This document shows, piece after piece, positions 1 to 21,756 of a stretch of DNA of 21,756 nt. Location: the IMG/VR virus record IMGVR_UViG_3300035700_000063, positions 1-21,756 of that record. The stretch is one strand, 5' to 3'. The notes beneath the pieces are model-generated. The model made no database searches, had not been told where the DNA came from, and saw only the letters and a list, made by a program, of their open reading frames with translations. Numbering within the stretch: position 1 is the first letter of the stretch; every line of letters starts with the position of its first letter. This stretch comes from a virus. The position numbers and the translations under genes were made by a program.

Positions 1-2
1 AG

Positions 3-1696: not shown

Positions 1697-1706
1697 AGGA
1701 AAGTAA

Positions 1707-6743: not shown

Positions 6744-6744
6744 A

Positions 6745-8535: not shown

Positions 8536-8545
8536 GGGAGCCAGT

Positions 8546-8782
8546 ATGAAAGAGAAGGTAGCGGCGGGGATCAGCATCCTAACCCTGTTCCTCTCTCTAA
8601 CTGTGGGGTATGCTACCATGAAGTCCAACCTCGCACGTATGGAGGAGCGTATCAACAACATTTCTAGCACTAATGTTCAGACGCTCCAAGTTCTTAATAG
8701 ACTAGCTGAAAGTGTGGATAAGCTATCCAGGAGCGTAGCACGGCTAGACGAGAGGACAAAGGTTCTAGAGAGAACTGATTGA
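8546..8782 (+). CDS. Small membrane protein with C-terminal coiled coil (possible lysis/i-spanin-like)
   Basis: A 78-residue protein. ATG at 8546 is chosen because AAGGGAG at about 8534-8540 precedes it; an in-frame start further upstream would lie deep inside the previous gene. Residues about 5-22 form one membrane segment. The rest, about 25-78, is a charged amphipathic helix with hydrophobic residues at heptad spacing (Leu-Ala-Arg-Met-Glu-Glu-Arg-Ile and similar). One N-terminal membrane helix followed by a coiled coil is the plan of inner-membrane spanins such as T7 gp18.5, but this protein is shorter and I saw no lipoprotein partner. It is the last gene of the + strand module, next to the terminator. 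Other possibilities are a holin-related protein or a small structural membrane protein. Confidence 0.7.
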   Translation: MKEKVAAGISILTLFLSLTVGYATMKSNLARMEERINNISSTNVQTLQVLNRLAESVDKLSRSVARLDERTKVLERTD

Positions 8783-8841: not shown

Positions 8842-10530
8842 TTACGCTTCACAAGCAGCGCATTCCCCTCCCTTGACACGGGCAAAGGCTTGAGCAGCAT
8901 TCACCGAATGTTGGTAATACAGAGTTGGGATGCCGAGCCTCCAAGCGTACAAGGTTAGCTCATTCAGTTCCTTAGCTGTCCAACTCTCATCAATCATTAA
9001 GTTCAAAGACTGTGACTGATCTAAGTGAGTCTGTCGTACCGCTGCAAGATGCAAGATGGTGTAAGGATCAATCTCCTTGAAGGTAAGGAAGACCTCCTTC
9101 TCTTCGTCTGTCAAGAAAGGAAGATGCTGTACGCTACCATCTGCTTCACCAATACTCTTCCACACCTCTGGTGTGTTCTGCCCTGCCTCCTCAAGAAGCT
9201 TCTCTAACTCTGGGTTCTTAATCTCCTCTTTAGCCTTGGCTAGGTTCTTGATGTAGTAGTTACTCATCAAAGGCTCTATCGACTGACTCACCTGACCAAG
9301 GATGAAGGCAGAAGAGGTAGTAGGGGCAATAGCATTAAGTGTTGTATTACGTCTGCCATACCCCTCTAGCACAGGGGGCTCTCCGAATACCTCTGCAAGC
9401 TCCTCTGAGGCTTTGTAAGAGCGTTCCTTGATTAAGCTGAACACTTCATCGTTTAACTGGGCAGCCCCCTTAGAGGACATGGATAGGCGCTTACTCTGTA
9501 ACAGGGAGTGCCAACCTAGAACCCCCAGTCCAAGTGCCCGATGGTTCTTAGCGAACTGGTAGGCCCTAGACATGAAAGAAGCAGAGAGAACGGAGGAGGA
9601 GCCCGGCTCCCCTTTAGCAGACTCCTCGATCTTCTGTAGGAAGTCTGTTACCACTGCGTCAAGGAGCTTAACCATTGTCTCAATAAGGTCAGTGTCCTTC
9701 CACTCATCGTAATGGAGAAGATTGACAGAACTTAGTACACATACAAAGCTCTCTTCCTGAGAGGAAGGTAGCATGATCTCGGAGCAGAGGTTGCTCCCCA
9801 GGATGGGCATACCTTTATCTTTGTAAACCTGGGGCTTGTTCTTATTAGCGTTGTCCGTGAAGAACACATAAGGGTAGCCGATAGAGGAACGAGCCTGGAG
9901 GACATTAGCCCAGGTCTTACGTTTAGCACTGTCCCCTGCAATCATAGACTCAAGCCACTCATCTGTAGCAGTGACCCCAGTGGTGAGGTTGTGAATGGCA
10001 TGCCCATCTGTTCCAATCTTTAGGAACTCTTCAATATCTCCATGGGACAGGGGAAGGTAGGGAGCAAACCTACCCCGCCTAGTAGCCCCTTGAGAGACAA
10101 CATCTGTTACGCTCTCGAACAACTCCATGAAGTGGACAGCACCCGAGGACTTACCATTACCCTTGATAGGGGCCCCTCTCGGTCGTACATCCCCAAAGTA
10201 ACCAGAGGTACCTCCACCATACTTAGTCATCATCCCTACCTCAGCTTGAGCGTAGAGAATCTCTGGTGCAGAGTCACCAATGTAGCTATTGAAACATGAC
10301 ACAGGCAGACCTCGGGGGTTGCCGAAGTTAGCCCAGACAGGGGAAGACAGGCTGACCCAGCCTTTGTCCATGTAAGAGTAGAGCTTGTCAGCGTACCCTT
10401 CCTCGTCCCCTAGTAGCTCTTGAGCCTTCTCAGCCACCTCTCGAAGGCGTTCCTCGGGTTCAACACCCTCTGACAAATAGCCCTGCTTCAGGAAGTTCCG
10501 AGACGCAGGTGTTAACCATTCAAATGACAT
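8842..10530 (-). CDS. nrdA: Ribonucleoside-diphosphate reductase, class I alpha subunit
   Basis: A 562-residue catalytic subunit that reduces ribonucleotides to deoxyribonucleotides for phage DNA synthesis. Class I hallmarks are visible. Cys79 (Val-Ser-Cys-Phe-Asn) and Cys264 (Cys-Val-Leu-Ser-Ser-Val-Asn) are the reducing pair. Asn247, Cys249 and Glu251 lie in Asn-Leu-Cys-Ser-Glu-Ile, the thiyl radical site. Tyr538-Tyr539 is the radical-transfer pair, and C-terminal Cys557/Cys560 (CxxC) is the re-reduction motif. It is much shorter than E. coli NrdA (761 residues) and starts directly in the N-terminal helical region, with no ATP-cone; that domain is on the partner NrdB. The ATG follows a strong TAGGAGA site and lies 8 nt after the nrdB stop. 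It is the last gene of the - strand operon. Identification is very secure. Confidence 0.97.
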   Translation of the reverse strand: MSFEWLTPASRNFLKQGYLSEGVEPEERLREVAEKAQELLGDEEGYADKLYSYMDKGWVSLSSPVWANFGNPRGLPVSCFNSYIGDSAPEILYAQAEVGMMTKYGGGTSGYFGDVRPRGAPIKGNGKSSGAVHFMELFESVTDVVSQGATRRGRFAPYLPLSHGDIEEFLKIGTDGHAIHNLTTGVTATDEWLESMIAGDSAKRKTWANVLQARSSIGYPYVFFTDNANKNKPQVYKDKGMPILGSNLCSEIMLPSSQEESFVCVLSSVNLLHYDEWKDTDLIETMVKLLDAVVTDFLQKIEESAKGEPGSSSVLSASFMSRAYQFAKNHRALGLGVLGWHSLLQSKRLSMSSKGAAQLNDEVFSLIKERSYKASEELAEVFGEPPVLEGYGRRNTTLNAIAPTTSSAFILGQVSQSIEPLMSNYYIKNLAKAKEEIKNPELEKLLEEAGQNTPEVWKSIGEADGSVQHLPFLTDEEKEVFLTFKEIDPYTILHLAAVRQTHLDQSQSLNLMIDESWTAKELNELTLYAWRLGIPTLYYQHSVNAAQAFARVKGGECAACEA

Positions 10531-10538
10531 TCTATCTC

Positions 10539-11783
10539 CTAAAATAATGATTCGGCTGAGAAGCCTTGTTTAAATTTGGTGTAGCCTACCGGATGCTTAG
10601 CGAAGAAGTCGGTGTGCATACCTGACATAATTTGTAAGTTGAACCACTGAGTCTTCTCTAGGATGGTTTGATCTACCTGGAAGGGTGGCATGAAGCCACA
10701 AGCCTCTAGGCCAGTGTTGAAACGATCCTTAATGAACTCTTCTACATCAGCTACGGTAAGGTAAGGGAAGTCCCCCTGTTCAAAGATCCATCGTACAATG
10801 CTGCACTCAGCTTCGTAAGCTTCTTGGACAAGCTCTTGTACATGCTCTTCCATTTCCTCAGTGAACATGTGAGGGTTTTCTTTACGTATGACATTAATCA
10901 ACTCCGCTCCGAACAGAAAGTGGACAGTCTCCTCAAGAGAGGTTGCTTCCACTGCGTTAGTAATGCCCTTGAGCATAGAGGTTTCTTTATTGAACGCAGA
11001 GATGATTAAGAACTGAGAGAACAGGGATACGTTCTCAATGAATAAGGAGAACAGTAGGATGGTCTTAACATACTCCTCTCGGCTACCTGTCTTAGCCCCT
11101 GCCATTGCCTTGCTCATGTACCGTACACGGTCACGAATGGCAGGAACCTCCAGCACCTTACCGAACTCCTCTTGTAACTGTAGAAGCTCAATCAGGTGAG
11201 CGTAAGCGTTAGCATGTCTGGCCTCTGACTCTCCAAATGTTACACCTACCTCTTGAATCTCTGGCTTCTGGAAGGTGTCCCCTATCTTAGGCCAAAAGTC
11301 CTTAACCTTAACCTCCACTTGACTGATGGCCAACATAGCCCTAAGGATAGCGGACTTCTGGGGCTCAGTCATTAGAGCGGAGTAGTCTTGTACATCCCCC
11401 TCGTAAGGGTAAGAGGTATGCACCCAGTAGGAGTGACGAATGGCTTCCACATATTTATGAAGGTTAGGATACTCACGAGGCAGGTAAGCCTCACGAGGTC
11501 GGAAGATGTCAGGCTTGTTACGCTCTCGGTATTGAATGTAAGAGCGGGCTGCTGAGCAAGCGCCAATACGCATTAAGGACTCTTCCACAGCCTCATGGAT
11601 AGAGTCCACTAGAATTTCATCTGTATACTTCCCCTGGAGCATACCTTGGGCCATGAAAGAGGCTGCTCTAGCTAGACTGGAATCCACCCCCTCAGGGGTG
11701 TCTCCCATAGCTTTCTCTACAGCCTGGATTGCTTTCTCTACATCAAACTCTTCAGTGCTTCCATCTCGCTTATTAACTAGCAT
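10539..11783 (-). CDS. nrdB: Ribonucleotide reductase class I beta subunit with N-terminal ATP-cone
   Basis: A 414-residue radical-generating subunit. Residues about 1-92 form an ATP-cone: Val-Asn-Lys-Arg-Asp-Gly-Ser-Thr at the start, and a conserved Tyr-Ile-Gln-Tyr-Arg end near 82-86. The ferritin-like R2 domain follows with a full set of metal ligands: Glu157, Glu187, His190, Glu250, Glu285 and His288. Tyr194 sits at the position of the E. coli radical Tyr122 (ExxHxxxY). The C-terminus ends in Ser-Ala-Glu-Ser-Leu-Phe, a plausible alpha-binding tail. ATP-cones are usually on NrdA; a few NrdB proteins, such as that of Leeuwenhoekiella blandensis, carry them and control activity through beta oligomerisation. 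The ATG directly follows the phoH stop codon (TAGATG). NrdA is immediately downstream. The assignment is secure; allosteric control through beta is inferred. Confidence 0.96.
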   Translation of the reverse strand: MLVNKRDGSTEEFDVEKAIQAVEKAMGDTPEGVDSSLARAASFMAQGMLQGKYTDEILVDSIHEAVEESLMRIGACSAARSYIQYRERNKPDIFRPREAYLPREYPNLHKYVEAIRHSYWVHTSYPYEGDVQDYSALMTEPQKSAILRAMLAISQVEVKVKDFWPKIGDTFQKPEIQEVGVTFGESEARHANAYAHLIELLQLQEEFGKVLEVPAIRDRVRYMSKAMAGAKTGSREEYVKTILLFSLFIENVSLFSQFLIISAFNKETSMLKGITNAVEATSLEETVHFLFGAELINVIRKENPHMFTEEMEEHVQELVQEAYEAECSIVRWIFEQGDFPYLTVADVEEFIKDRFNTGLEACGFMPPFQVDQTILEKTQWFNLQIMSGMHTDFFAKHPVGYTKFKQGFSAESLF

Positions 11784-12416
11784 CTAGCTTGCTCCTCCTT
11801 CCCAACTGTCAAACGCCATGATCCATTTCTTGCATTGTTCAGATCGGATAATATCTTCGTAGTTAAAATCAATTAAGTGGCAGTCTACACTAAGCCCCCT
11901 AACCATCCGCACTAGCTCAGCTAGACCACTCTGCTTAAACTTAGGGGAAGTCTGTGCTACATCACCACAGAGAACAACCTTACTGTAAGTACCCTGCCTA
12001 GTAAGGAGAACCTTGAGCTGTTCATAGCTCATGTTCTGCACTTCATCCACGATGATTAGTGTATCATCCCAGGTAAGCCCCTGGATGAACTCCAAGGGCA
12101 TATACATCAAGCGACCCTGCTTCTCAAGCATAGTTAACTCACCAGCCTTAACACCTAGCTTAGTGAAGTTCTGCTCAATAGGGCGAACCCAGGGAGCCAT
12201 CTTCTCCCTCTCTGTCCCTGGGAGGAAACCGTTCTCTTTAGCAAAGGATACGTTAGGACGAGTAACCACTACACTCTTACGTCTATCCTGAAGCCACTCT
12301 GTAGCTAACTCAATTGCTCCGTAAGTTTTCCCTGTTCCGGCAGGCCCAGTACAAATCACTGGTAAGAGATCCCGATCTCGTAAGGACAGCTCATACATTT
12401 TACGGTTATCGCTCAT
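11784..12416 (-). CDS. phoH: PhoH-like P-loop ATPase
   Basis: A 210-residue protein made essentially of the PhoH ATPase domain. Walker A is Gly24-Pro-Ala-Gly-Thr-Gly-Lys-Thr31, and Walker B is Leu-Ile-Ile-Val-Asp-Glu (about 120-125). A Leu-Cys-Gly-Asp-Val-Ala-Gln motif near 149-155 follows. PhoH homologues are very common in marine phages. Bacterial PhoH is linked to phosphate starvation and probably to RNA handling, but the phage role is not established. The gene starts at ATG after AAGGAA, 9 nt beyond the stop of the DEDDy exonuclease gene, and its stop touches the nrdB start. This packing suggests co-expression with nucleotide supply genes. The family call is secure; the function is open. 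Confidence 0.93.
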   Translation of the reverse strand: MSDNRKMYELSLRDRDLLPVICTGPAGTGKTYGAIELATEWLQDRRKSVVVTRPNVSFAKENGFLPGTEREKMAPWVRPIEQNFTKLGVKAGELTMLEKQGRLMYMPLEFIQGLTWDDTLIIVDEVQNMSYEQLKVLLTRQGTYSKVVLCGDVAQTSPKFKQSGLAELVRMVRGLSVDCHLIDFNYEDIIRSEQCKKWIMAFDSWEGGAS

Positions 12417-12425
12417 ATAGGTTCC

Positions 12426-13193
12426 TTATACAGCGTTAGTAACGAGGTCGTGACGTACATCCTTCGGGTACTCTGTATACCGAGTACGTGCCCAACCGTT
12501 ACAATCTTGGCACTGGTACTTCTGATACTTACCCACCCCAGTGTAGCAATAACCTCTCATCTGTACATGACTAGAGCCGCACTTAGGACACAAGGGACGG
12601 GCCTCCTCTGCAAAGACACCTAAGTTGGGATGGTTAGTCATCCAAGGGCGGAGCTTCAAGTACACCTGCTCTAGTGTGTCTACGTCTTGGATGTTATAGA
12701 CCCGCATCTCTTTCCAGGCAGCAGGGTTCCCCTTAATACACTCAGACCAGAGGGAGAACCCAGGGAACTCCTTATGCTCGTCTTTCTCTTCTACACCTAG
12801 GTAGTCAGCTAGGTAGGCAAGGCTGTTACGGTCAAACCTGAACTCCTTCTTAGCTACCTTCAGCGTATCAATCTCCTTAATAGGAGACCAGGGAGGGATA
12901 CCATGCAGGATGCAGCGTGCTCTTACAATGGGAATGTCGAATCGACTTCCGTTATGGGCAATGACAATATCTGCCTCTTCGAAGTAGGCTGCTAGCTCGT
13001 GGCATAGGCGGCTATCGTCCTCGTCACGAGTCTCGGAGTAGGCAACCCCCTTGTCCCCTAGCCACTTAGCAGCATAGCTCATTATGTAGGTGGAGGAGAG
13101 GGTTTGATTTAAGCCTACGTTAGTGTTCCAAAAGCTCCAAACATACGCAAGCTTGGGGGCCGTTTCTAAATCAACAATTAAGATCTTAGTCAT
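12426..13193 (-). CDS. DnaQ-like 3'-5' exonuclease (DEDDy) with C-terminal zinc ribbon
   Basis: A 255-residue protein with an RNase H-like 3'-5' exonuclease domain. Exo I is Val-Asp8-Leu-Glu10. Exo II is His80-Asn-Gly-Ser-Arg-Phe-Asp86. Exo III is Tyr166-Asn-Ile-Gln-Asp170, the YxxxD form of the DEDDy group. A C-terminal zinc ribbon follows with Cys202/Cys205 and Cys228/Cys231, probably a nucleic-acid binding element. It could trim DNA or RNA ends during replication or recombination, or degrade host DNA; the substrate cannot be read from sequence. It is separate from the proofreading domain inside the phage DNA polymerase. Its ATG overlaps the thyX stop by 8 nt (ATGACTAA), so translation is probably coupled. 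The fold is certain; the biological role is inferred. Confidence 0.9.
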   Translation of the reverse strand: MTKILIVDLETAPKLAYVWSFWNTNVGLNQTLSSTYIMSYAAKWLGDKGVAYSETRDEDDSRLCHELAAYFEEADIVIAHNGSRFDIPIVRARCILHGIPPWSPIKEIDTLKVAKKEFRFDRNSLAYLADYLGVEEKDEHKEFPGFSLWSECIKGNPAAWKEMRVYNIQDVDTLEQVYLKLRPWMTNHPNLGVFAEEARPLCPKCGSSHVQMRGYCYTGVGKYQKYQCQDCNGWARTRYTEYPKDVRHDLVTNAV

Positions 13194-13821
13194 CAGTCAA
13201 TGCACTCCATGATACAGGAAAGAGAGGCTTAATAATATTACCTACCATGTGGGCTAGGTCTTGTATCTCCTGTTGAGCGTGGCTATCGGTACGCTGTCTG
13301 TAGAACCTAGCAAAGGCAGCCAGTGAGCCAGTGACATAGTAGGAAGTGTACATAGACTGTGGAAGAACCGTACGTGCCTGCTCCGGTGCAACCTCATCCT
13401 TAATCAACATGTTGTAGAGGTTAAGGGCCCTCTGTGCGTCCTCTTTAATGTAGCCTATATACGCATCAGAGGAGGGATGCTCACCGCCACTACCTTGTTT
13501 CACACTGCCATCTGGGCGTTTTCGTAAGGAGTCCGGCACGTAGAAGGTGGGCTCATCGTCTACATACCGCCTACTCACTTCGTTACGAGTAAAGCCTACA
13601 ATGTGTTTAAACTCCTGTCTTGCTACGAAGATAGGGACAGTGTAACGTAGTGTGATTTGGGGGTGGGAGAAAGGAGACCAATGGCCGTTCCTAGCTAGGT
13701 AGGAGAGCAGCTTCCCGTTCTGCTCTTCAGTAAACATTGAAGCTTCTTTCTCAAAAGAAACACGGGCAGCGTCAGCCACCCGATTATCTGAACCCATGTG
13801 GTCAATGTATTCTGCTCTCAA
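13186..13821 (-). CDS. thyX: Flavin-dependent thymidylate synthase, divergent
   Basis: A 211-residue ThyX, which makes dTMP from dUMP with FAD, NADPH and methylene-tetrahydrofolate. Conserved parts are the N-terminal Asp-His-Met-Gly-Ser-Asp, Ala-Ala-Arg-Val-Ser-Phe near 18-23, Ser83-Arg-Arg-Tyr86, Ala-Pro-Glu-Gln-Ala-Arg150, and Arg177 with Ala-Gln-Gln-Glu-Ile. The signature RHRx7S is altered: the region reads Lys72-His73-Ile-Val before Asn-Glu-Val-Ser, and it appears one residue longer than the usual spacing. The start is TTG at 13821, because the family N-terminus begins there and the next Met (residue 9) would cut the conserved start. The TTG shares bases with the stop of the DUF3310 gene (TTGA). 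It works with NrdA/NrdB and the DUF3310 protein to raise dTTP. The family is secure. Confidence 0.94.
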   Translation of the reverse strand: MRAEYIDHMGSDNRVADAARVSFEKEASMFTEEQNGKLLSYLARNGHWSPFSHPQITLRYTVPIFVARQEFKHIVGFTRNEVSRRYVDDEPTFYVPDSLRKRPDGSVKQGSGGEHPSSDAYIGYIKEDAQRALNLYNMLIKDEVAPEQARTVLPQSMYTSYYVTGSLAAFARFYRQRTDSHAQQEIQDLAHMVGNIIKPLFPVSWSALTDD

Positions 13822-14051
13822 AGAACTTCTCCGTATTCCAAGTGGGCCAGCAGTTCAAGGAAGTGCTTGGCCTTACGTAAGTCTTCCATACCTGCCTTGC
13901 TAGCATGTCGTGAGACATACTTAACTACATTACTCTCACAGCAAGGTAGTTTGTTTCTCTGACAGAACTCTACAGGCTGGATGGGTAAGGTCTTGTAATG
14001 TCCTCCCCCAACCTGCACATCTAGGGCAGACTTATCGGTCTCAAGCTCCAC
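13818..14051 (-). CDS. DUF3310 domain protein (T7 gp1.7-like nucleotide kinase candidate)
   Basis: A 77-residue protein that is almost only a DUF3310 domain. It shows Val-Gly-Gly-Gly-His-Tyr-Lys, Pro-Ile-Gln-Pro-Val-Glu-Phe, Val-Val-Lys-Tyr-Val-Ser-Arg-His, and Lys-Ala-Gly-Met-Glu-Asp-Leu with Lys-Ala-Lys-His-Phe-Leu. T7 gp1.7 has the same domain and is a dTMP/dGMP kinase, but it is more than twice as long. Next to thyX, a role in turning dTMP into dTDP is attractive but inferred. The start is GTG with GGGAGG at 14058-14063, 6 nt upstream; no better start fits. It overlaps the preceding 73-aa gene by 11 nt and thyX by 4 nt. The domain call is confident; kinase activity is not shown by the sequence. 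Confidence 0.88.
   Translation of the reverse strand: MELETDKSALDVQVGGGHYKTLPIQPVEFCQRNKLPCCESNVVKYVSRHASKAGMEDLRKAKHFLELLAHLEYGEVL
13826..13832 (-). promoter_or_regulatory. Ribosome binding site setting the thyX TTG start
   Basis: GGAGAAG on the - strand lies 4 nt before the TTG of thyX, inside the last codons of the DUF3310 gene. It supports the TTG as the real start and coupling of the two genes. Confidence 0.65.
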
Positions 14052-14262
14052 GATGAACCTCCCGCTTTACGGCGTCATATCCCTTAGCCTTAATATAATT
14101 AAACATTATTAACATTTGTCGCTTACTCCTTTTATCAAATTGCTCCATATATGACTCACTAGCAATCTCCCCTTTATCCTCCGCTAAGTTAAAGGCTAAA
14201 GCACATCGGTTCCATGTACGTAGTGTAGCGTTATCAATGTCATTGAAGTTACGATTGCTCAT
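14041..14262 (-). CDS. Small phage protein of unknown function (73 aa)
   Basis: I do not recognise this family. ATG at 14262 is chosen over an earlier in-frame start at 14301 because AAGAGAG lies just upstream and the longer form would overlap the HNH gene by more than 50 nt. The product is hydrophilic and probably helical, with Asn-rich ends, a central Trp-Asn-Arg, a Lys-Arg-Ser-Lys-Arg-Gln basic patch near residue 45, and a basic C-terminus. There is no membrane segment and no cysteine cluster. It overlaps the HNH gene by 14 nt and the DUF3310 gene by 11 nt, so it is clearly part of the coupled operon. Nucleic-acid binding would fit the basic patch but is only a guess. Confidence 0.75.
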   Translation of the reverse strand: MSNRNFNDIDNATLRTWNRCALAFNLAEDKGEIASESYMEQFDKRSKRQMLIMFNYIKAKGYDAVKREVHRGA

Positions 14263-14668
14263 TACTGCTCTCTTTTTGGCGTCTAAGTTTAGCAATTCCA
14301 CGCTCCTCTGCTGTTACCCTGTCGTGGCAAGTCTTGCATAAGAGTTGCAGATTATCCATCTCGCAGTACATAGCCTCGATTACGTCACCCCATGTAGTAA
14401 ACCCTACTGAAGGATCTATAATGGGGGAGATGTGATCGACTGCTACGTTCTTTACTCTCTTACCATCCTTTACTATTGTGGCAGGAACTTCCTCTTTGCA
14501 CTCTGCACATAAGTAGAAACCTCTTCGGGTTCGTGCATCCTTGTTAGTCTGCTGGATGGGTGCCCACTTACGAGTCCCCTGTCGTAGTAGGTTTTTGATG
14601 AAAGAGTTGAACCGTGCCTCAGTCCACAACCCGTTACATCTAGTCTTCTCTCCGCTTGGCCTTGCCAT
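14249..14668 (-). CDS. HNH endonuclease
   Basis: A 139-residue nuclease of the HNH type. A zinc knuckle Cys54-x-x-Cys57 pairs with Cys111-x-x-Cys114. The core is Val-Asp78-His79-Ile-Ser-Pro, with Asn106 in Asp-Asn-Leu-Gln and His115 in Cys-His-Asp. The N-terminal region (Arg-Phe-Asn-Ser-Phe-Ile, Arg-Lys-Trp-Ala-Pro) is typical of stand-alone phage HNH proteins. ATG at 14668 is preferred over a GTG two codons upstream, because GAGGAG lies 5 nt before it. It overlaps the exonuclease stop by one base (TAATG). The flanking genes are intact and overlap it, so it is not inside an intron. It may process replication intermediates (the place taken by gp3 in T7), degrade host DNA, or be a domesticated homing enzyme. 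Confidence 0.92.
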   Translation of the reverse strand: MARPSGEKTRCNGLWTEARFNSFIKNLLRQGTRKWAPIQQTNKDARTRRGFYLCAECKEEVPATIVKDGKRVKNVAVDHISPIIDPSVGFTTWGDVIEAMYCEMDNLQLLCKTCHDRVTAEERGIAKLRRQKESSNEQS

Positions 14669-15525
14669 TACCACTCCTCTGGTAGTTGGTACATCATAGG
14701 ATTACCTTCGTCATCTACATCCCTCACCATCCACAGTAGATAGGCTTGTTCGAGGAAGTAGTCTACACCGTACCCCTTAGCCTCATAGAGGGCCTTTACA
14801 GCCCGATACATAGCTACCTCCGTCTCGCACTCCGAGAGGGCCTTGTACGCCATCACAGGCCCACCTCGGGGCAGACCTGGGATGGTGTCAACCTTATCTC
14901 CTGTAATCATCTGTGAGTAGAAGAACTTTAACCCTGTCCCTGTAATCTTGCCCTTCTCCGAGTGGCTCAAGGTTCCGAGGGAGTCTACTAGCAAGGGGCC
15001 AAACCCTGGTTGGCTCCCGCACTCCCATCCATACTGCCATCCTGGCATAATCCTCAAGTCCTTATCTCTGCTGCAAATGATGGTTGACTCTTCTTTAAGG
15101 AACCTTTGTTGGTGGATGCAGAGTAGGTCATCAGCCTCTATGCCCCAAGCTATCAAGGGGCTGTAGTGGTGATGTATGTACGCTAAGAGATTGTAGTAGT
15201 GGTAAGGTCTTTCAGAACGCTTATCCTTGTAAGGAGTTGCCTTGGCTACTTGGAAGCGGAAGTTAGGGACGAGGGGAAGGGCCTCAAGCCCCTCCCGTTT
15301 ACGCTTCCTGTTCTCTAGCCTTAATAGAAACGCGTTACCAGTTAGGAAAAGATCTGAGTCTTCATCTGCCCAGCAGGCGTCTTCAATCTCTTTAATCTTC
15401 TGATCGAATAGGCTAGCTACCGGCTCAAAGTCTCTTACAATCTTCTCCCCTGTATCCTCGTCCCTATACTCACCACCAAAGCAAGCCTCATACAGAACCA
15501 CGTCTGTATCTATAAGGCATTTCAA
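14668..15525 (-). CDS. 5'-3' exonuclease, T7 gp6/FEN-like
   Basis: A 285-residue flap-type nuclease that removes RNA primers and resects DNA ends in phage replication. Metal-binding acidic residues are in the expected order: Asp6 and Asp8 (Ile-Asp-Thr-Asp), Glu130-Ala-Asp132-Asp133, Asp154 and Asp156 (Ser-Arg-Asp-Lys-Asp), and Asp210 and Asp213 (Thr-Gly-Asp-Lys-Val-Asp). The last of these leads into the helix-3-turn-helix Ile-Pro-Gly-Leu-Pro-Arg-Gly-Gly. The start is TTG at 15525, four bases overlapping the previous stop (TTGA). The catalytic Asp6 is so close to the N-terminus that no later start is possible, and the next in-frame Met is about residue 160. The downstream HNH gene starts in its stop codon. 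Identification is secure. Confidence 0.95.
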   Translation of the reverse strand: MKCLIDTDVVLYEACFGGEYRDEDTGEKIVRDFEPVASLFDQKIKEIEDACWADEDSDLFLTGNAFLLRLENRKRKREGLEALPLVPNFRFQVAKATPYKDKRSERPYHYYNLLAYIHHHYSPLIAWGIEADDLLCIHQQRFLKEESTIICSRDKDLRIMPGWQYGWECGSQPGFGPLLVDSLGTLSHSEKGKITGTGLKFFYSQMITGDKVDTIPGLPRGGPVMAYKALSECETEVAMYRAVKALYEAKGYGVDYFLEQAYLLWMVRDVDDEGNPMMYQLPEEW

Positions 15526-15719
15526 GCAGGCTCCTCCACTCGGTTAGCTGCAATGGCGTAGTTAGTGAGGCCCCCTTTAGGTCGGAAGAACACATACTTC
15601 TTACCTTCAAGCGTAACACGGCCTGTCACCTCTCCCACCATGCCAGAGTACAGGCCCTCCTTCTCAAGGCCCTCTCCGTCTACCAGAATATCTTTCTCTT
15701 CATAGCCCGTCTTTTTCAT
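15522..15719 (-). CDS. Small protein of unknown function (65 aa), beta-rich
   Basis: I do not recognise this family. ATG at 15719 is chosen because AGGGG lies about 6 nt upstream. A longer form from TTG at 15746 or ATG at 15740 has no ribosome site and would lie mostly inside the 41-aa gene. The product starts with a charged segment, then Gly-Met-Val-Gly-Glu-Val-Thr-Gly and Lys-Lys-Tyr-Val-Phe-Phe-Arg-Pro-Lys-Gly-Gly, alternating strands and turns like a small barrel (SH3-like), and ends in an acidic tail. It overlaps the 41-aa gene by 20 nt and the exonuclease by 4 nt. It may be a nuclease or replication accessory protein, but nothing in the sequence proves this. Confidence 0.75.
   Translation of the reverse strand: MKKTGYEEKDILVDGEGLEKEGLYSGMVGEVTGRVTLEGKKYVFFRPKGGLTNYAIAANRVEEPA
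15531..15537 (-). promoter_or_regulatory. Ribosome binding site setting the exonuclease TTG start
   Basis: GGAGGAG on the - strand lies 5 nt before the TTG at 15525, within the last codons of the 65-aa gene. It is one of the strongest such sites in the window and compensates for the weak start codon. Confidence 0.7.
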
Positions 15720-15825
15720 CAATGTACCCCTGCCATTCATAATCAAAGATAATTTTATTGCTTACCATCTGAGCAAGCTCCAACTGTTCTAGGGAGTCAA
15801 ACTCGGGGGATGCGTATGTTACCAT
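15700..15825 (-). CDS. Very small protein of unknown function (41 aa)
   Basis: A short open frame, easy to miss, bridges the SSB-like gene and the 65-aa gene. ATG at 15825 overlaps the end of the SSB-like gene by 7 nt, with GAGGA about 9 nt upstream inside its acidic tail. The stop (TGA at 15700-15702) falls 20 nt into the next gene. The product runs from Met-Val-Thr-Tyr-Ala-Ser-Pro-Glu to Glu-Lys-Asp-Gly-Leu. It is acidic and contains a Leu-Glu-Gln-Leu-Glu-Leu helix and a Phe-Asp-Tyr-Glu-Trp-Gln-Gly-Tyr aromatic patch. Without it there would be a gap of about 100 nt in an otherwise gapless operon. The function is unknown. Confidence 0.6.
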   Translation of the reverse strand: MVTYASPEFDSLEQLELAQMVSNKIIFDYEWQGYIDEKDGL

Positions 15826-16562
15826 GGCTTGTCGTCCTCATCATCGGTGTCATCTTCTTCCTCTGTGTCTTCAGGCTCTTCCTTAGGCTCTACAGGGGGC
15901 TTCTCCTTCTTACCCTTGGCCTTCCCCTTGCCTCCTGTTAGAAGCTCTTCTAGGGGGCTTCCTGCGTACTCTAGGTTGCCCTTAATCTTCTCTTGCAACC
16001 AATCAGGTAGGGCCATGAATACTTCTAAGTCAGGTTCCTCTAAGCTAAACATCTTAGTTGGGTTGACTAGCTCAGGCGTCTTGGTAGCATCACGAGGACG
16101 CATGGCTGATAGGTCTTGAATACCATTGCGCTCCTTACCAGCATTGGGGCCATTCTTCAGCGTGAAAGTCTTCAGCAGCACATTGGCAGGAGCACCCAGT
16201 AACATACTGAAGTCGCCCTCATGTACCTGCTTAGGGTCTAAGGCTAGGTAGCGCTTAGTAGACTTAGCTCGTTCGCTGGAAAGGTTATACAAAGGGAACT
16301 CTTCCGACAACCAACGTGGCTTGTCTTCGATCTCCTCCCCTTCTTCATCCTTCAAGAACTCGTCAACAAACTCATAGGTTAGTTGAATCTGGTGAGCAGG
16401 TGGCTTCTCTTCGCCTTGGAAAGGACGCTGTGGTTGCACCCCTAGGTCAATGATTTGGACAACACGGACAGGGTATGTACCTGCATCCAACACCTCTTGC
16501 TCTACGAAATCCTTACCACCTGCTGAACCATTTGCTGCTTTCTTAGCGTTTAAACCGGCCAT
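15819..16562 (-). CDS. Probable single-stranded DNA-binding protein with acidic tail
   Basis: A 247-residue soluble protein. The N-terminal ~190 residues have a mixed beta/alpha pattern with many Val, Tyr, Phe and Lys. A Lys-rich linker (Gly-Lys-Ala-Lys-Gly-Lys-Lys, about 213-219) follows, then a highly acidic tail ending Asp-Glu-Asp-Asp-Lys-Pro-Trp. An acidic C-terminus closed by an aromatic residue is what T7 gp2.5 and bacterial SSB use to contact polymerase and helicase. It is encoded in the replisome operon, two genes after DNA polymerase, where an SSB is expected and no other candidate is seen. I do not recognise a family signature in the core, so the SSB role is inferred. ATG at 16562 has GGCGAGGAA upstream, inside the end of the membrane protein gene. 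Confidence 0.7.
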   Translation of the reverse strand: MAGLNAKKAANGSAGGKDFVEQEVLDAGTYPVRVVQIIDLGVQPQRPFQGEEKPPAHQIQLTYEFVDEFLKDEEGEEIEDKPRWLSEEFPLYNLSSERAKSTKRYLALDPKQVHEGDFSMLLGAPANVLLKTFTLKNGPNAGKERNGIQDLSAMRPRDATKTPELVNPTKMFSLEEPDLEVFMALPDWLQEKIKGNLEYAGSPLEELLTGGKGKAKGKKEKPPVEPKEEPEDTEEEDDTDDEDDKPW

Positions 16563-16565
16563 GTA

Positions 16566-16787
16566 TTATTCCTCGCCTTTAATATAATTATGAATTAAAA
16601 CTGGGATTGTGAAGAGCGTCATGGATATTACTAGGTAGACAGTCGTCCAGAAGTCGCTCATAGGCATATCGCTGTATACCTCTTCCAACCAAGCCTTTAC
16701 CTCCTCAGGATCTTCCTTGTAATTCCATGCTATGATTGTCGCAGAGACAATGCTATTAGTTGTTAAGTAAATTAATAGCCAAGTCAT
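16566..16787 (-). CDS. Small two-helix membrane protein of unknown function (73 aa)
   Basis: ATG at 16787 follows a perfect AGGAGGT, the best ribosome site in the window, just after the DNA polymerase stop. The protein has two hydrophobic segments, about residues 2-21 and 47-68. They are joined by an acidic loop (Glu-Asp-Pro-Glu-Glu-Val-Lys-Ala-Trp-Leu-Glu-Glu-Val), and the protein ends Lys-Gly-Glu-Glu. I recognise no family. It sits between DNA polymerase and the SSB-like gene with 3-9 nt gaps, so it is made together with the replisome. It might anchor replication to the membrane, block superinfection or act in host takeover; none is shown by the sequence. Confidence 0.78.
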   Translation of the reverse strand: MTWLLIYLTTNSIVSATIIAWNYKEDPEEVKAWLEEVYSDMPMSDFWTTVYLVISMTLFTIPVLIHNYIKGEE

Positions 16788-16796
16788 ACTTACCTC

Positions 16797-18731
16797 CTAG
16801 TGGATATCCCACCATGTTTTTCCTATCTTAGCTTCCCCCTCATGTGGGCAAGCGATGTTGTAGAATTTACCTGCATCAACTATGCACCTCTCAGCTATAG
16901 AAGCTACATCTTTTGCAATCTCCTCACGGCATTCAACCGTAAACTCATCATGAACAAAGGCTACTACACCATAGTCCACACCATGCTTGTACTTCTTACT
17001 CAGCCTCTTACAGAGTAAGTTGTAAGCAGCGCTCATCATTATCCCCTCGTCTGATTGAAGCATGTACACTAATATCTGATGTTCGCTGTCAATCACAATA
17101 GGTCTACCATCAAGCCCTGCTATACACCCCCTGTGATATTCAAGCTTACCCCAGTCGTTTATACGTTGCTTAGCATTGCTCCTCCACTCTTTAGTTAGGT
17201 TAGTAACAAGCGCTTCGAAACCTGCTGCCACAGAGAGAAGGGCTTCCCTAATCTTAGCACCTACATTAAGGTCGGTAGACCCGAAAGAAGAGGCAAGCTT
17301 CTTATCGGAAGCACCAAAGGTCATGGCGTAGTTTAGTGTCTTTGCCATGTGGTAGGAAACCTCTAGGCCAGCAACCTCCTTGATAGCTCTCTGGTTTACG
17401 TGGTGAATGGATGTACCATCTTCCTTACTGCCATTGATAAGGGTATCAGTGAAGAAGTCATCACCAACCCTGGCTGCAAGCATCCGGTTCTGACACCCAG
17501 CAGAGTCACACCCCACTAGGGTATACCCAGGCTTAGCTATGAACACCTTACGCATCTGCTTACCAAAGAAGGCATCGCCTCCCGGTACGTTCACTATTCC
17601 AGCGTGCTTCATCCTCCCTGTAGTAGCTACGCCACTAACCCTTGCTGCTATCCTCCCATCTGGTCGTATAAGCTTCTTCCAGCCTTCAAGGTTGCTACGC
17701 CTATGCCTACACTGAACACGCTTAGCAATCATCCTGCCGACCTTACCGGACACACCTAGGAATGGATCATCTCCGTGAAGTTTAGGGGAGGTCTTCGTTA
17801 AGTTACCCCTCTCGTCTTTCTCAGGTCTACCTTTCTTATCTTTCTTGTAGTTCCAAGTCTCGGGTATCCAGCCCTCTGAGAGAAGGAAGTCTTTAGTTTC
17901 CTCATTACTGTCTAGATTAACAAGACGAAAGCTAATACGGCTAAAAGCACCCACCACATTTTGATTACGATGTAAAGGGTCAAGACCATCCATCCAGTTA
18001 AGAACTTGAGAAGTGTACTCCCTATTTTTCTTGAAGGGCTTGCTAACGAATTTGTATTCACCTTTAACCTTCTGCTCTTCAACAATGAGCTTTAAAGGCA
18101 ACATAGGGACAATGGATTTATCAATCTTTCTTATCCAATGTGTTAGAAGATTGATTGATTTATCAATGTAAACTTCGTCAACTAACCACCCATATTGCTC
18201 TTGTTTATGTAAGTTCTTGAACAGCTCGAAGGATAGAAGGTGTGCCTTACGCCAACTCTGACCTTTAATCTCCTTCATTAGTTCAAAGAACGTGAGCTTA
18301 TTTATCTCAACATCTTCGGAACAGCGGTGTAGCATACCCTCATCGAAGCTATCCCACTCATGGTAGTCAGGTTTGTCCACCCCTACCCTTACACCCCAGG
18401 CATACAGGCTGTGTGGGCCTGCTGTACGGTCTCTAGCCTGAATAGGTAGGGTACGTTTAGGTTTATGTAAACGGCTCATGACAAGCGTGTCTACCACCTT
18501 CCCCTTGAAAACTCTGCCTGTCATCTTCTCCAAGAGAGGGAGGTCGTATGAGATGATGTTGTGACCAATCAAGACCTCTGCCTTCATGAGTCTGTCAGCA
18601 AGATCCCCTATCTGGTGTGGGCGGTACTTCCACACATCATCACTGTTTAGATCAGCAACAACTCCGCAATGTATTGTTGTTGCCTTGTCAAGGAGGTTGT
18701 CCGCTTCCAGATCGAATACATATACACTCAT
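16797..18731 (-). CDS. DNA polymerase, family A, T7 gp5-like with proofreading domain
   Basis: A 644-residue replicative polymerase that aligns with T7 gp5 (about 704 residues) from end to end; even the C-terminal Lys-Ile-Gly-Lys-Thr-Trp-Trp-Asp-Ile-His matches. Exonuclease: Asp7 and Glu9 (Exo I), Asp63 (Exo II), Asp140 (Exo III). Polymerase: Thr-Gly-Arg373, motif A Asp409, motif B Lys464 and Tyr468, motif C His594-Asp595-Glu596. Three conserved positions are unusual. Exo III reads His135-x4-Asp140 and lacks the Tyr four residues before the Asp. The Glu after motif A Asp (T7 Glu480) is Gln414. The O-helix Arg (T7 Arg518) is Tyr460. Tyr468 corresponds to T7 Tyr526, which favours fast synthesis and dideoxynucleotide use. 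It lies 5 nt after the sigma-like gene. T7 uses thioredoxin as clamp; whether this enzyme does is unknown. The identity is secure. Confidence 0.97.
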   Translation of the reverse strand: MSVYVFDLEADNLLDKATTIHCGVVADLNSDDVWKYRPHQIGDLADRLMKAEVLIGHNIISYDLPLLEKMTGRVFKGKVVDTLVMSRLHKPKRTLPIQARDRTAGPHSLYAWGVRVGVDKPDYHEWDSFDEGMLHRCSEDVEINKLTFFELMKEIKGQSWRKAHLLSFELFKNLHKQEQYGWLVDEVYIDKSINLLTHWIRKIDKSIVPMLPLKLIVEEQKVKGEYKFVSKPFKKNREYTSQVLNWMDGLDPLHRNQNVVGAFSRISFRLVNLDSNEETKDFLLSEGWIPETWNYKKDKKGRPEKDERGNLTKTSPKLHGDDPFLGVSGKVGRMIAKRVQCRHRRSNLEGWKKLIRPDGRIAARVSGVATTGRMKHAGIVNVPGGDAFFGKQMRKVFIAKPGYTLVGCDSAGCQNRMLAARVGDDFFTDTLINGSKEDGTSIHHVNQRAIKEVAGLEVSYHMAKTLNYAMTFGASDKKLASSFGSTDLNVGAKIREALLSVAAGFEALVTNLTKEWRSNAKQRINDWGKLEYHRGCIAGLDGRPIVIDSEHQILVYMLQSDEGIMMSAAYNLLCKRLSKKYKHGVDYGVVAFVHDEFTVECREEIAKDVASIAERCIVDAGKFYNIACPHEGEAKIGKTWWDIH

Positions 18732-18736
18732 TGCCT

Positions 18737-19222
18737 TTAACCTGTCGAGTATTTAGCAAGCATATCCAGCTTGAATCTACGTAGGATATGCTCAATACCC
18801 CGAGAACCTTCCTCTACAATCTCTGCAATCTCTCGGGGACGGTATCCCTTGATGAAGGTTAAGCGTAAGACTTGCTGGTGGGCCTCCGGCCTGCCGTCAA
18901 TCTCGCCTACTACCTCTTTCATAGTGGAGATACCTAACCCTCGGAAGTCTTCGAAGGGTTCGTCTTTCTCCATCTCATCCCGGACTAAGCCTTGCTGAAG
19001 TTCTTGGCGTTTAAAGTCGTAGGTACAGCGCTTAATGATACGCTGTAGCCATACCTCCAACGATGCCTTACCTCCATCAAAGCTTTCACAATGCTTCAAG
19101 GCCCGGCAGTACGCCTCTTGCACAATGTCTTCAGCGTTATACAAACCACCTACCCGTCCTGCCAAAGCCTTGGCTTGCTTAGAAGACTTCTCTCTATAGA
19201 GTGCTTCGATTTCTTCATACAT
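18737..19222 (-). CDS. ECF-like RNA polymerase sigma factor
   Basis: A 161-residue protein with the two-domain plan of ECF sigma factors. Region 2 (about 28-75) contains Asn-Ala-Glu-Asp-Ile-Val-Gln-Glu-Ala, a conserved Trp-Leu in Leu-Glu-Val-Trp-Leu-Gln-Arg-Ile, and a terminal Asp-Phe-Lys-Arg. These correspond to core-binding and -10 recognition elements. A linker of about 40 residues leads to region 4 (about 112-155). There Val-Leu-Arg-Leu-Thr-Phe-Ile-Lys-Gly-Tyr is followed by Arg-Glu-Ile-Ala-Glu-Ile, the -35 reading helix-turn-helix. It would direct host RNA polymerase to phage promoters, probably of a later gene class. It lies between the 53-aa gene (8-nt overlap) and DNA polymerase, with GAGGAAG before its ATG. 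No phage RNA polymerase is seen here, which makes a sigma factor plausible. The class is fairly secure; the regulon is unknown. Confidence 0.85.
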   Translation of the reverse strand: MYEEIEALYREKSSKQAKALAGRVGGLYNAEDIVQEAYCRALKHCESFDGGKASLEVWLQRIIKRCTYDFKRQELQQGLVRDEMEKDEPFEDFRGLGISTMKEVVGEIDGRPEAHQQVLRLTFIKGYRPREIAEIVEEGSRGIEHILRRFKLDMLAKYSTG

Positions 19223-19376
19223 ATACTTCTTCCTCAGTTATTCGTACAATCCTTCCATCTAGGGTATCTAGAAGACGTCGAGAGGCTTCATCTAAGTTAT
19301 TGAAAGTCATTCCTTGCAGGAAGTGCTGCTCTGCCTCACTCCAGAACTCTACACGCCAACTCATCTTAATAATCAT
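19215..19376 (-). CDS. Small protein of unknown function (53 aa)
   Basis: A short coding frame between primase-helicase and the sigma-like gene. ATG at 19376 is chosen because GGAG lies about 7 nt upstream, spanning the primase stop. A longer form from 19454 would overlap the primase by 77 nt. The product has Met-Ser-Trp-Arg-Val-Glu-Phe-Trp near the start, a central Asn-Asn-Leu-Asp-Glu-Ala-Ser-Arg-Arg-Leu-Leu helix and an acidic Thr-Glu-Glu-Glu-Val-Tyr-Val end. Its last 8 nt are shared with the sigma start, so the two are probably coupled. It could be a partner of the sigma factor, but I recognise no family. Confidence 0.7.
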   Translation of the reverse strand: MIIKMSWRVEFWSEAEQHFLQGMTFNNLDEASRRLLDTLDGRIVRITEEEVYV

Positions 19377-19377
19377 A

Positions 19378-21030
19378 TCACATCTCCGCAAACAACCCTG
19401 TCTTTCTGTTCCAGAAAAGAGGTATTGAACCCACCTCACCAAACTCCCTATCATCCAGCAGAACTAAGTGCCTTACGTTACGCTTTCCATCACTTAGGTC
19501 TGGGTCTTTATTACCTTCCAGTCCAAACATGTAGTTGCAAGAACGTCCCATAGCACGAGACCCAGCAAACTGAGAGGTAAGAACATGTCCCCCTCGATCA
19601 TGAGATACACCGCTGTCAGGGTTACGCAAGTGACAGAAGATGAAGATAGCCACATCCAAGTCTTTAGCCATTGCTGCTAGCTCTTGTGCTATCTCTTGCA
19701 GCTTTGTGTTGGCATCAGCCGAGTCCATACCGTTGGTTAGATTAGTGATGGGGTCTATGAATACAGCCTTACACCCCTCACTTGCGGCTGATCTAATGTC
19801 AGTCTTCAACGTATCCCAGCCTAGGTGCTGGTAGAGGTTTACCATGCACAACTTGTCTTGTATAACTTCACCTGCTGCATCGTAGGCCCCTTCATCGAAC
19901 TCTACCTTCGGATCATGGAACACCTTGCCTGCAATCTTACCAGCAACTAGCTTGTATGTCTTAGCGTTAGCTTCTTCCGGCTTAGCCATCATCACTGACC
20001 AACCCACTTTCTCTATTAACCATGCCCCTAGTGTGTTCACAACCTCGCTCTTACCCATTTTCTGTGCTGCACCTAGGTAGTAGGTCTCTCCTGGTCTAAT
20101 CCCCCTTGTGAGGTCTGTAAGGCGCTTCCAGGGCCACGGTACACCCCACTGTGCTGGAACCTTAGCTGACTCGTGAACCTCCCTTCCCCAAACTAACCTT
20201 GTGTTCTTAGCTTTGACAGCGTTGAACGTAACAGCTTTATGGGCTGCCTTTGTCTTCCCCTGAAGTATACATTCGTTAGCATCCTTGCAAGGTAGCTCAA
20301 TAGAGGTAGCATCCGGGAACACCTTCATCGCTGCTTCTAAGGCTTCTTGCCCTGCCTTATCGTTATCAAAGCAGAAGCTAACTTCTTTAAAGCTTCTCTT
20401 AATCTTGGAAGCTAGCCTAGCTAGGTCTTTACTAGCACTGGCAGCACCATGGGGTAAGGAAGCTATAGCAGGTATATTATCCTTCCACTTATCCTGTGTG
20501 TGCATCTCCAGGATACGATCAAGGGCGGGTACGTCCATTTCTCCTTCTACAATTATTAACCGCTTTGCCCCTGTTGTTACTGCCTGCTCCCAACCGAATA
20601 GATCTACATCAGTCTGGTCTCCCAGCGCCCAGAACTTCTTAGGCTCAATCAGCTTAACTTTGTAGGAAGTTTGCTCACCGTTCTTAGTGTAAGGGAAGTA
20701 GATGAACTTAACGGTCTTACCATCTTCCTCACTAAATCCTAGCTTAATGCCGTACTTCTCTAGGGAAGATTTACGCAGTCGTCTGTCTTTTAAATCCTCT
20801 ACAGGGTAAGTGTTAATCTCCCTAATCTCTGCCTCAACCTCCTCCTTACTTTTCCTCAGTCTTTTCTTAATAGGGAAGTCTTGAACTTCCCTACCGTCTA
20901 GTGGATCAGGGACATACTTCTTACACGAAAAGCAAAATCCGTCTGTTAGGCCACCCTCCTTCTCGAAAACCTGTAGCCCATCTGTCGAGCCACAGGAGTG
21001 AGGGAGTTTCATTATACATTGTCCTGACAT
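19378..21030 (-). CDS. Primase-helicase, T7 gp4-like
   Basis: A 550-residue fusion that makes RNA primers and unwinds DNA at the fork. Its N-terminal zinc-binding region has Cys13, Cys33 and Cys36. The first Cys of the T7 set is missing, and His11 or Cys5 may replace it. The TOPRIM primase has Glu163 (Val-Glu-Gly-Glu-Met-Asp) and Asp222-x-Asp224. The helicase has Walker A Gly320 to Ser328 (with Gly326-Lys327-Ser328), Walker B Ile-Asp426, and His467 in Phe-Cys-His-Leu. The length is near T7 gp4A (566). ATG at 21030 sits in TAATG with the stop of the 70-aa gene, after a G-rich ribosome site. The 53-aa gene starts 1 nt after its stop. It works with the T7-like polymerase encoded two genes downstream. 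The identity is secure. Confidence 0.96.
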   Translation of the reverse strand: MSGQCIMKLPHSCGSTDGLQVFEKEGGLTDGFCFSCKKYVPDPLDGREVQDFPIKKRLRKSKEEVEAEIREINTYPVEDLKDRRLRKSSLEKYGIKLGFSEEDGKTVKFIYFPYTKNGEQTSYKVKLIEPKKFWALGDQTDVDLFGWEQAVTTGAKRLIIVEGEMDVPALDRILEMHTQDKWKDNIPAIASLPHGAASASKDLARLASKIKRSFKEVSFCFDNDKAGQEALEAAMKVFPDATSIELPCKDANECILQGKTKAAHKAVTFNAVKAKNTRLVWGREVHESAKVPAQWGVPWPWKRLTDLTRGIRPGETYYLGAAQKMGKSEVVNTLGAWLIEKVGWSVMMAKPEEANAKTYKLVAGKIAGKVFHDPKVEFDEGAYDAAGEVIQDKLCMVNLYQHLGWDTLKTDIRSAASEGCKAVFIDPITNLTNGMDSADANTKLQEIAQELAAMAKDLDVAIFIFCHLRNPDSGVSHDRGGHVLTSQFAGSRAMGRSCNYMFGLEGNKDPDLSDGKRNVRHLVLLDDREFGEVGSIPLFWNRKTGLFAEM

Positions 21031-21242
21031 TACACCCCCCAGCTCACAGTTCCAAACCAGTCAATGAACCCTGTCTCTTCTCCCTTCTTAAACCTAATAC
21101 CAGAACTTGACTCCTCCAAATCATGTAGGTCAAACTCTAACAAGTATAGATATTTCTTAGCACATTGCCTGCCCTCGAAGGGGAACAGGTCTAGAATTCT
21201 ATCTACTTCAGCTTCAAAAGCTGAAACTTTTTTACTGTTCAT
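21030..21242 (-). CDS. Small acidic protein of unknown function (70 aa)
   Basis: ATG at 21242 is chosen because GGAG lies about 9 nt upstream. Longer in-frame versions starting up to 21329 would overlap the methyltransferase and lack a ribosome site. The product is acidic and soluble. It has a helix with Phe-Glu-Ala-Glu-Val-Asp-Arg-Ile-Leu, a Leu-Tyr-Leu-Leu-Glu-Phe-Asp-Leu segment and a C-terminal Phe-Ile-Asp-Trp-Phe-Gly. I recognise no family. It shares one base with the primase-helicase start (TAATG), so it probably helps couple translation into that gene. The 31-nt gap to the methyltransferase is the largest inside the - strand operon. Confidence 0.72.
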   Translation of the reverse strand: MNSKKVSAFEAEVDRILDLFPFEGRQCAKKYLYLLEFDLHDLEESSSGIRFKKGEETGFIDWFGTVSWGV

Positions 21243-21273
21243 TGCTTTGACTCCATGTCTGTGAGAATCGAGA

Positions 21274-21756
21274 TTAAGCAGCGTTAATGCGTTCATTAGC
21301 AATGTTGAAATACTCTTCATCAAGTTCAATACCGATGAATTTACGGTTTAGATTCTTAGCAGCTACCCCGGTTGTACCACTGCCCATAGTAAAGTCCAGG
21401 ACTGTCTCACCTTCGTTTGTATAAGTGCGGATTAGGTACTCCATTAGCGCCACGGGCTTTTGCGTGGGGTGTACGGTCTTCCCCTCGCTCTTAATCTCGA
21501 GCACATCACGCGGCCAGTTTGTGAACTCTTGAACATACTCGGCGGCATTTCTTTCACCGTAGTTATCTGAGTTTCCACCCTGCCTAGTCACCGTGCCTTT
21601 CGCCTTGAGCCCTTGGGCGTTGTACGTTCCTGTGGACTTCCGTTGGCAGAAAACAAGCACCTGCTCGTGCTTGCGTACCGGCATACGCTTAGCGTTTAGA
21701 ACCCCAGTGATGCGCGACTTCACCCACGTCCACTGATACGCGAACATTTCAGGATT
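21274..21756 (-). CDS. DNA methyltransferase (N4/N6 type), C-terminal part (partial at 5' end)
   Basis: The frame is open to the right edge of the window, so the N-terminus, including any DPPY motif, is not seen. The 161 visible residues contain Trp-Thr-Trp-Val-Lys and Met-Pro-Val-Arg-Lys-His-Glu near the start and a variable basic stretch that could read the target. His-Pro-Thr-Gln-Lys-Pro (motif X) follows. Asp-Phe-Thr-Met-Gly-Ser-Gly-Thr-Thr-Gly is motif I, which binds S-adenosylmethionine, and Phe-Ile-Gly-Ile-Glu-Leu-Asp is the next strand. A SAM site at the C-terminal end is the order of beta-class amino-methyltransferases (PF01555-like). No restriction endonuclease is visible, so it probably protects phage DNA from host restriction. 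The class is secure; the target base and site are unknown. Confidence 0.93.
   Translation of the reverse strand, partial: NPEMFAYQWTWVKSRITGVLNAKRMPVRKHEQVLVFCQRKSTGTYNAQGLKAKGTVTRQGGNSDNYGERNAAEYVQEFTNWPRDVLEIKSEGKTVHPTQKPVALMEYLIRTYTNEGETVLDFTMGSGTTGVAAKNLNRKFIGIELDEEYFNIANERINAA

Follow-up and report, generated by a model that had tools for sequence, protein, structure and literature searches.

Among the systems described so far, the sigma factor gp47 of phage 7-11 (SaPh711_gp47) drives transcription in vitro from bipartite late promoters of the form GTAAtg-(16)-aCTA, which sigma70 does not (PMC8948821), and phage phiEco32 features single-element promoters (tAATGTAtA) and a sigma factor without a recognised region 4 (PMC8948821). 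The Zobellviridae are a widespread family with a virion and replisome resembling those of T7, and without the T7 RNA polymerase. In the paper on Klyazma, the family was described as having no RNA polymerase of its own and was compared with phiEco32 (PMC9960094), a mere pointer which leaves the timing of late genes in the Zobellviridae open. A sigma gene of this family and the candidate late promoters reported here would provide a concrete answer to this question, together with a number of new sigma-promoter pairs.

The stretch of DNA analysed (the window) is an entire virus record of 21,756 bases, representing a 21.8 kb genome fragment. Its main features, with the basis of each assignment, are as follows.

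1-8782, plus strand: distal part of the virion module (ORF list, PHROG matches, gene order of relatives)
8842-21756, minus strand: replication and nucleotide-metabolism module, which houses the sigma gene (ORF list, family matches)
16797-18731, minus strand: family A DNA polymerase (Pfam DNA_pol_A, E 6.8e-16)
18737-19222, minus strand: gene for an ECF-like sigma factor of 161 aa, ATG start (Pfam, PHROG, profile and fold matches)
18740-18934, minus strand: region 4 domain of the sigma factor (residues 97-161), predicted to recognise the -35 element (structure match; Pfam in relatives)
18989-19222, minus strand: region 2 domain of the sigma factor (residues 1-78), predicted to recognise the -10 element and to bind the core enzyme (Pfam residues 18-74; structure match)
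19215-19375, minus strand: small ORF between primase-helicase and sigma, about 53 aa long if started at the ATG at 19375 (sequence)
19378-21030, minus strand: primase-helicase (Pfam Toprim and DnaB_C)

The gene order of the replication module is that of phage PA11 and relatives, and the scaffold-capsid part of the virion module, where the late element is found in relatives, lies outside the fragment. A preliminary description of this DNA had placed the sigma gene between primase-helicase and DNA polymerase and coupled it to both. The position holds, as does the coupling to the polymerase, whose ATG lies 5 nt past the sigma stop codon; on the primase side, however, the small ORF intervenes. Its 3' end overlaps the start of the sigma gene by 8 nt, its longest-start form extends over 19215-19454 (79 aa from the first start at 19454), and no family match was obtained for it in Pfam or PHROG. 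Read on the plus strand, the coordinates of the sigma gene contain stops in frame 1. No anti-sigma gene was recognised near the sigma gene. The virion module of the window also contains a GNAT-type acetyltransferase (724-1206, PHROG 1249), and VpV262, SIO1, KZY1 and Vibrio 1.235.O have acetyltransferases annotated in a comparable position.

The profile searches that the preliminary description had proposed confirmed its reading of a 161-residue protein with sigma regions 2 and 4 in this order. Residues 18-74 match Pfam Sigma70_r2 (PF04542) with an E value of 7.5e-12 and 45.3 bits (cut-off 24), PHROG 1740, labelled "RNA polymerase sigma factor", is matched with an E value of 4.8e-17, and most of the protein is covered by several NCBIfam ECF models, with scores below every listed cut-off. 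Region 4 is sub-threshold by Pfam in the single window sequence (E 0.11). A profile built from 8 relatives matches SigW of B. subtilis across regions 2 to 4 (E 4.1e-15), as does a profile of 51 sequences (E 1.4e-19). All 51 aligned relatives match Sigma70_r2, and 12 of the 51 match Pfam Sigma70_r4_2 at E<0.01. From the single sequence, AlphaFold yielded a poor region 4 (pLDDT <50), and the 51-sequence alignment was used instead, giving a model with two helical domains (pLDDT 87.9). In this model, residues 1-80 match sigma-E region 2 on a -10 element (4lup; Z 10.0, rmsd 2.4 over 78), with further matches of the region 2 domain to 7qh5 and 6in7 (Z about 10), and for residues 97-161 the matches are to structures of region 4 (5fgm, Z 7.6; 3vfz, Z 7.5), including sigma-E region 4 on -35 DNA (2h27, Z 6.9); fold Z values below about 13 are not decisive alone for helical folds, such that the sequence profiles carry the assignment and the structure agrees with it. 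The helix-turn-helix of region 4 directly follows region 2, without a region 3. By its profiles and predicted fold, the window protein is a compact two-domain sigma factor (regions 2 and 4) of ECF type, with core RNA polymerase binding and promoter-specific initiation as its predicted functions. A chance ORF, as another reading of 18737-19222, was rejected.

As a gene, this type of sigma factor is not new, since it is already annotated in Zobellviridae. Sigma genes are annotated at the same locus in Pseudomonas phage PA11 (gp12), Salinivibrio phage CW02 (gp21), Citrobacter phage CVT22 (gp45), Pseudoalteromonas phage RIO-1 (gp19) and Klyazma, and the RIO-1 record itself states that "there is a clear sigma factor in this position in related phages". 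A tblastn search with the window sigma in 50,697 phage records gave 27 records with a relative (E down to 1e-16), many of them labelled "RNA polymerase sigma factor". The sigma-bearing records examined were Zobellviridae (PA11, CW02, GP100, Vibrio 1.235.O and oyster-virome phages), and a search with the DNA polymerase added CVT22, Klyazma, RIO-1 and other sigma-bearing members of the family. In every one of these examined Zobellviridae records, the sigma gene lies between primase-helicase and polymerase on the replication strand. The window sigma is 23-30% identical to the aligned members of the phage collection, and its closest match found is the virus contig G001 (sigma 76-79%, polymerase 87% identical). 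Sigma loci in relatives were found through polymerase and capsid alignments: among the 69 IMG/VR polymerase loci that extend 500 nt or more upstream, 58 show a clear sigma match ahead of the polymerase, and all 20 further contigs picked by polymerase or capsid, 46-52 kb in length, contain a sigma gene. No sigma was detected in VpV262, SIO1 and P12053L. Three viral contigs (L119, L128, L129) with a polymerase 43-46% identical show no detectable sigma in the 4 kb upstream; there it was either lost, moved or too diverged, which makes these contigs a ready group for comparison. According to its record, RIO-1 has a group I intron (L018:1171-1403) that interrupts the primase-helicase gene beside the sigma gene.

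The preliminary description had also seen a T7-like replisome operon here; the replisome is indeed of that kind, but the lineage is not. The window DNA polymerase is up to 54% identical to Zobellviridae polymerases, and the 21.8-kb fragment displays the opposite-strand replication and virion modules, the T7-like replisome and the RNR/ThyX/PhoH order of PA11. Judged by these features, the window phage is a short-tailed virus of the Zobellviridae and not of the Autographiviridae. The lack of an RNA polymerase gene that had been noticed in the window was already in print for the family (PMC9960094). The single-subunit RNA polymerase family PF00940 gave no match in the window, which, being a fragment, provides weaker evidence than the relatives, nor did it match in 40 relatives (19 Zobellviridae records, G001 and 20 further contigs), although some of these records may be incomplete. 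In the searches of relatives, T7 served as positive control and was matched at 1e-109. A single-subunit RNA polymerase, which the preliminary description had named as evidence against its reading, was not encountered in any of these records. Control by a T7-type polymerase was rejected on the records searched.

In sigma-bearing relatives, the scaffold and capsid genes are preceded by a gap usually about 95-160 nt long, reaching more than 300 nt, with an AT fraction of up to 0.88. In the sigma-less VpV262, SIO1 and P12053L, the corresponding gap measures 2-12 nt. When 49 non-redundant gaps from upstream of scaffold were searched by expectation-maximization (EM), with no motif supplied, the motif discovered was TGTNACAA-N14-(A/G)GTATATA(T/C), i.e. 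a -35-like and a -10-like block, with a single spacer length holding in 63%. The log-likelihood ratio of this motif was 146, compared to 47-62 in 12 dinucleotide shuffles, which leave in place the kinship of gap sequences that are partly related by descent. In Melvirus phages (RIO-1, T4S1_470236 and KZY1_1263260), the locus holds a sigma that is annotated or putative, and there is no scaffold gap. A tRNA-Asn gene is located within the scaffold-upstream gap of GP100 (L006, 42905-42976), and tRNA-like sequence is visible in the scaffold gaps of L185, L194, L212 and L214, suggesting that this gap tolerates tRNA insertions.

Elements of this kind recur within genomes. A second copy of a 36-base gap segment at 28/36 identities or more was found in 14 of 30 genomes, versus 1 of 116 AT-rich control windows drawn from the same 30 genomes. 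Of the 21 copies found at 26/36 or more, a threshold that is not decisive alone since 20 of 116 controls reach it too, 19 are on the virion strand, upstream of terminase. Conservation of the element takes the form of two blocks and a variable middle; the letters of the element agree within a genome and differ between lineages. Owing to these differences, scanning whole genomes with the pooled motif yielded few strong matches per genome, and the search for repeats within each genome worked better. For example, Vibrio 1.235.O has an element TGACACAAAA...GGTATATATAATATAACTA in two virion-strand copies, with a shorter form ahead of primase-helicase; contig G018 has TGTCACGTTTT...GTTAT..GGTATATATAAATATAAC, likewise in two virion-strand copies plus a shorter one ahead of primase-helicase; CVT22 has three copies; and G001 has exactly two, both on the virion strand, the G001-like form being CTGGGTTTT-N5-AA-N-TTC-N-AGTATATAATA. 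In four genomes (Vibrio 1.235.O, Vibrio 1.264.O, G018 and contig G009), an early-strand copy precedes primase-helicase by 50-130 nt, and VPMCC5 has a copy between primase-helicase and sigma. Roughly one sigma-bearing genome in three, PA11, KZY1 and contig G005 among them, yielded no convincing second copy.

The preliminary description had pointed to a repeated pair of -35/-10-like sequences to be sought ahead of the virion genes. Such pairs exist in relatives; they do not in the window, which lacks the virion-promoter regions, i.e. the scaffold gap and the divergent region. When the window was scanned for the G001 element, the best match was at background level (20/36). By analogy with its relatives, the window phage probably has late elements outside the sequenced fragment. 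No target promoters for a Zobellviridae sigma are annotated in the records examined, and none are described in the literature searched, the RIO-1 and CW02 papers (RIO-1: 10.1128/JVI.01521-13) lying outside this scope. The repeated promoter-like elements ahead of Zobellviridae virion genes, for which we found no published description, are put forward as candidates.

In some genomes, a far copy of the element is found within the early region, oriented along the virion strand: at 46089-46124 (minus) in CW02 (L003), at 5469-5504 (minus) in GP100 (L006), at 3652 (minus) in the T2S2 record PQ867839 and at 9931 (minus) in G001. The virion operon begins several kb downstream of these four copies, opposite-strand early genes lying in between, and transcription from them would oppose the early genes head-on. 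In the Vibrio phages, the corresponding copy adjoins divergent early promoters instead.

The elements might be ordinary host sigma70 promoters, the phage sigma doing something else or serving only some of the virion genes. The TATATA-rich -10-like block and the spacer of about 17 nt are as in sigma70 promoters, and the link between sigma and element consists of position and co-occurrence; co-variation of element and sigma similarity, with polymerase and capsid controlled for in a partial Mantel test, was weak (partial r 0.15, p 0.06). Nevertheless, the best sigma70 scores in the scaffold gaps (mean 3.5) were no better than those of shuffles, and the near-consensus TTGACA-TATAAT sites identified in 30 genomes were on the early strand in 11 of 11 cases, most of them close to the beginning of the virion operon, the expected starting point of early transcription. 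Moreover, agreement within a genome combined with difference between lineages speaks against a host promoter. By sequence, then, the candidate late elements are unlike sigma70 promoters. Sigma70 promoters as the whole story were rejected, and the identification of the elements as such promoters appears unlikely.

Replication origins, or sites of another phage protein, to which the promoter look would be secondary, represent another reading of these AT-rich repeats. The length of the scaffold gap, its high AT content and the long AT tracts that follow some elements would be in line with this, and a T7 origin combines promoters with an AT-rich stretch. However, short blocks at fixed spacing, a bias to the virion strand and copies upstream of primase-helicase fit promoters better, making an origin in place of a promoter very unlikely; a promoter could also double as an origin.

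In a clade of Vibrio phages, the sigma factor itself is split. Region-4 sequence like that of 1.264.O, where it forms a separate gene, was found in 24 phage records, which include Vibrio phages 1.264.O, PS32B.x, 464E53-1 and others, VPMCC5, and the oyster phage PQ867854. In the five loci that were read directly, two ORFs with an ATGA overlap encode one region each, 85 aa long for region 2 and 101-103 aa long for region 4.

L016:1937-2496, split sigma locus (ORF reading)
L014:1636-2201, split sigma locus (ORF reading)
L282 and L283:1937-2496, split sigma loci (ORF reading)
L114:3437-3996, split sigma locus in an IMG/VR contig (ORF reading)

Sequencing error is an unlikely cause of the split because it is kept at about 50% identity. 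The late elements of split-sigma phages are still bipartite. A split sigma is known from B. subtilis, in the form of SigO with RsoA, and a literature search on split phage sigma factors found nothing on point. The split sigma of Vibrio phages would allow each DNA-recognition domain to be studied as a separate protein. That the protein is a PhyR-like sigma mimic, tying up either the core enzyme of the host or an anti-sigma factor, and not an active specificity factor, a reading to which the PhyR sigma-like domains among the fold matches and the weakness of region 4 by single-sequence profile lend some colour, is highly improbable given that regions 2 and 4 are both kept across the family, even when split into two genes, that matching promoter-like repeats exist, and that the searches found no RNA polymerase gene by which the late genes could otherwise be transcribed.

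The best explanation, and in our view a probable one, is that an ECF-type sigma factor made with the replisome redirects host polymerase to bipartite late promoters, while sigma70 reads the early genes. Host sigma70 holoenzyme would first read the early genes from the near-consensus promoters on the early strand, and the phage sigma would be expressed together with the replisome. It would then bind host core RNA polymerase and direct it to the phage-specific bipartite promoters, from which the virion operon and, separately from it, the genes for scaffold and capsid would be turned on. The sigma factor of some relatives may also drive its own primase-helicase-sigma-polymerase operon, thereby forming a positive loop. 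The preliminary description had proposed that a compact sigma lent to host polymerase controls the gene classes and could switch on the virion genes. The elements of relatives support this proposal, and we infer recognition of the elements by the sigma factor, their action as late promoters and the timing of the switch. A more far-reaching possibility, which we regard as rather doubtful, is that a fast-diverging sigma-promoter pair runs the early-late switch across most Zobellviridae, that the far copy in CW02, GP100, T2S2 and G001 could silence early genes by convergent transcription, and that the sigma of the Vibrio clade consists of two proteins.

In comparison with known systems, the annotated sigma factors of PA11, CW02, CVT22 and RIO-1 share with that of the window its locus, the two-domain sigma and the two-strand layout. 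Bacterial ECF sigma factors (SigW, sigma-E, SigR) likewise have two domains without regions 1 and 3, with likeness extending to a full-length profile match and a match of folds at the domain level. ECF promoters carry an AAC motif at -35, and judged against this motif the phage elements are dissimilar from them. The hallmark of the Autographiviridae (T7), a gene for a single-subunit RNA polymerase, is unmatched in the window and in the 40 relatives. Escherichia phage phiEco32 offers a likeness to the proposed scheme in that its middle and late genes are read by host core enzyme with the phage sigma gp36; it also uses the helper gp79. Salmonella phage 7-11, which is phiEco32-like, resembles the scheme proposed here in that a sigma factor with region 4 lends specificity to host polymerase, in its bipartite late promoters, in the dependence of early genes on sigma70 and in its opposite-strand modules (PMC8948821). 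Phage 7-11 nonetheless belongs to another phage group, has another promoter consensus, and carries its sigma gene inside the late cluster, unlike the Zobellviridae, in which it is part of the replisome operon.
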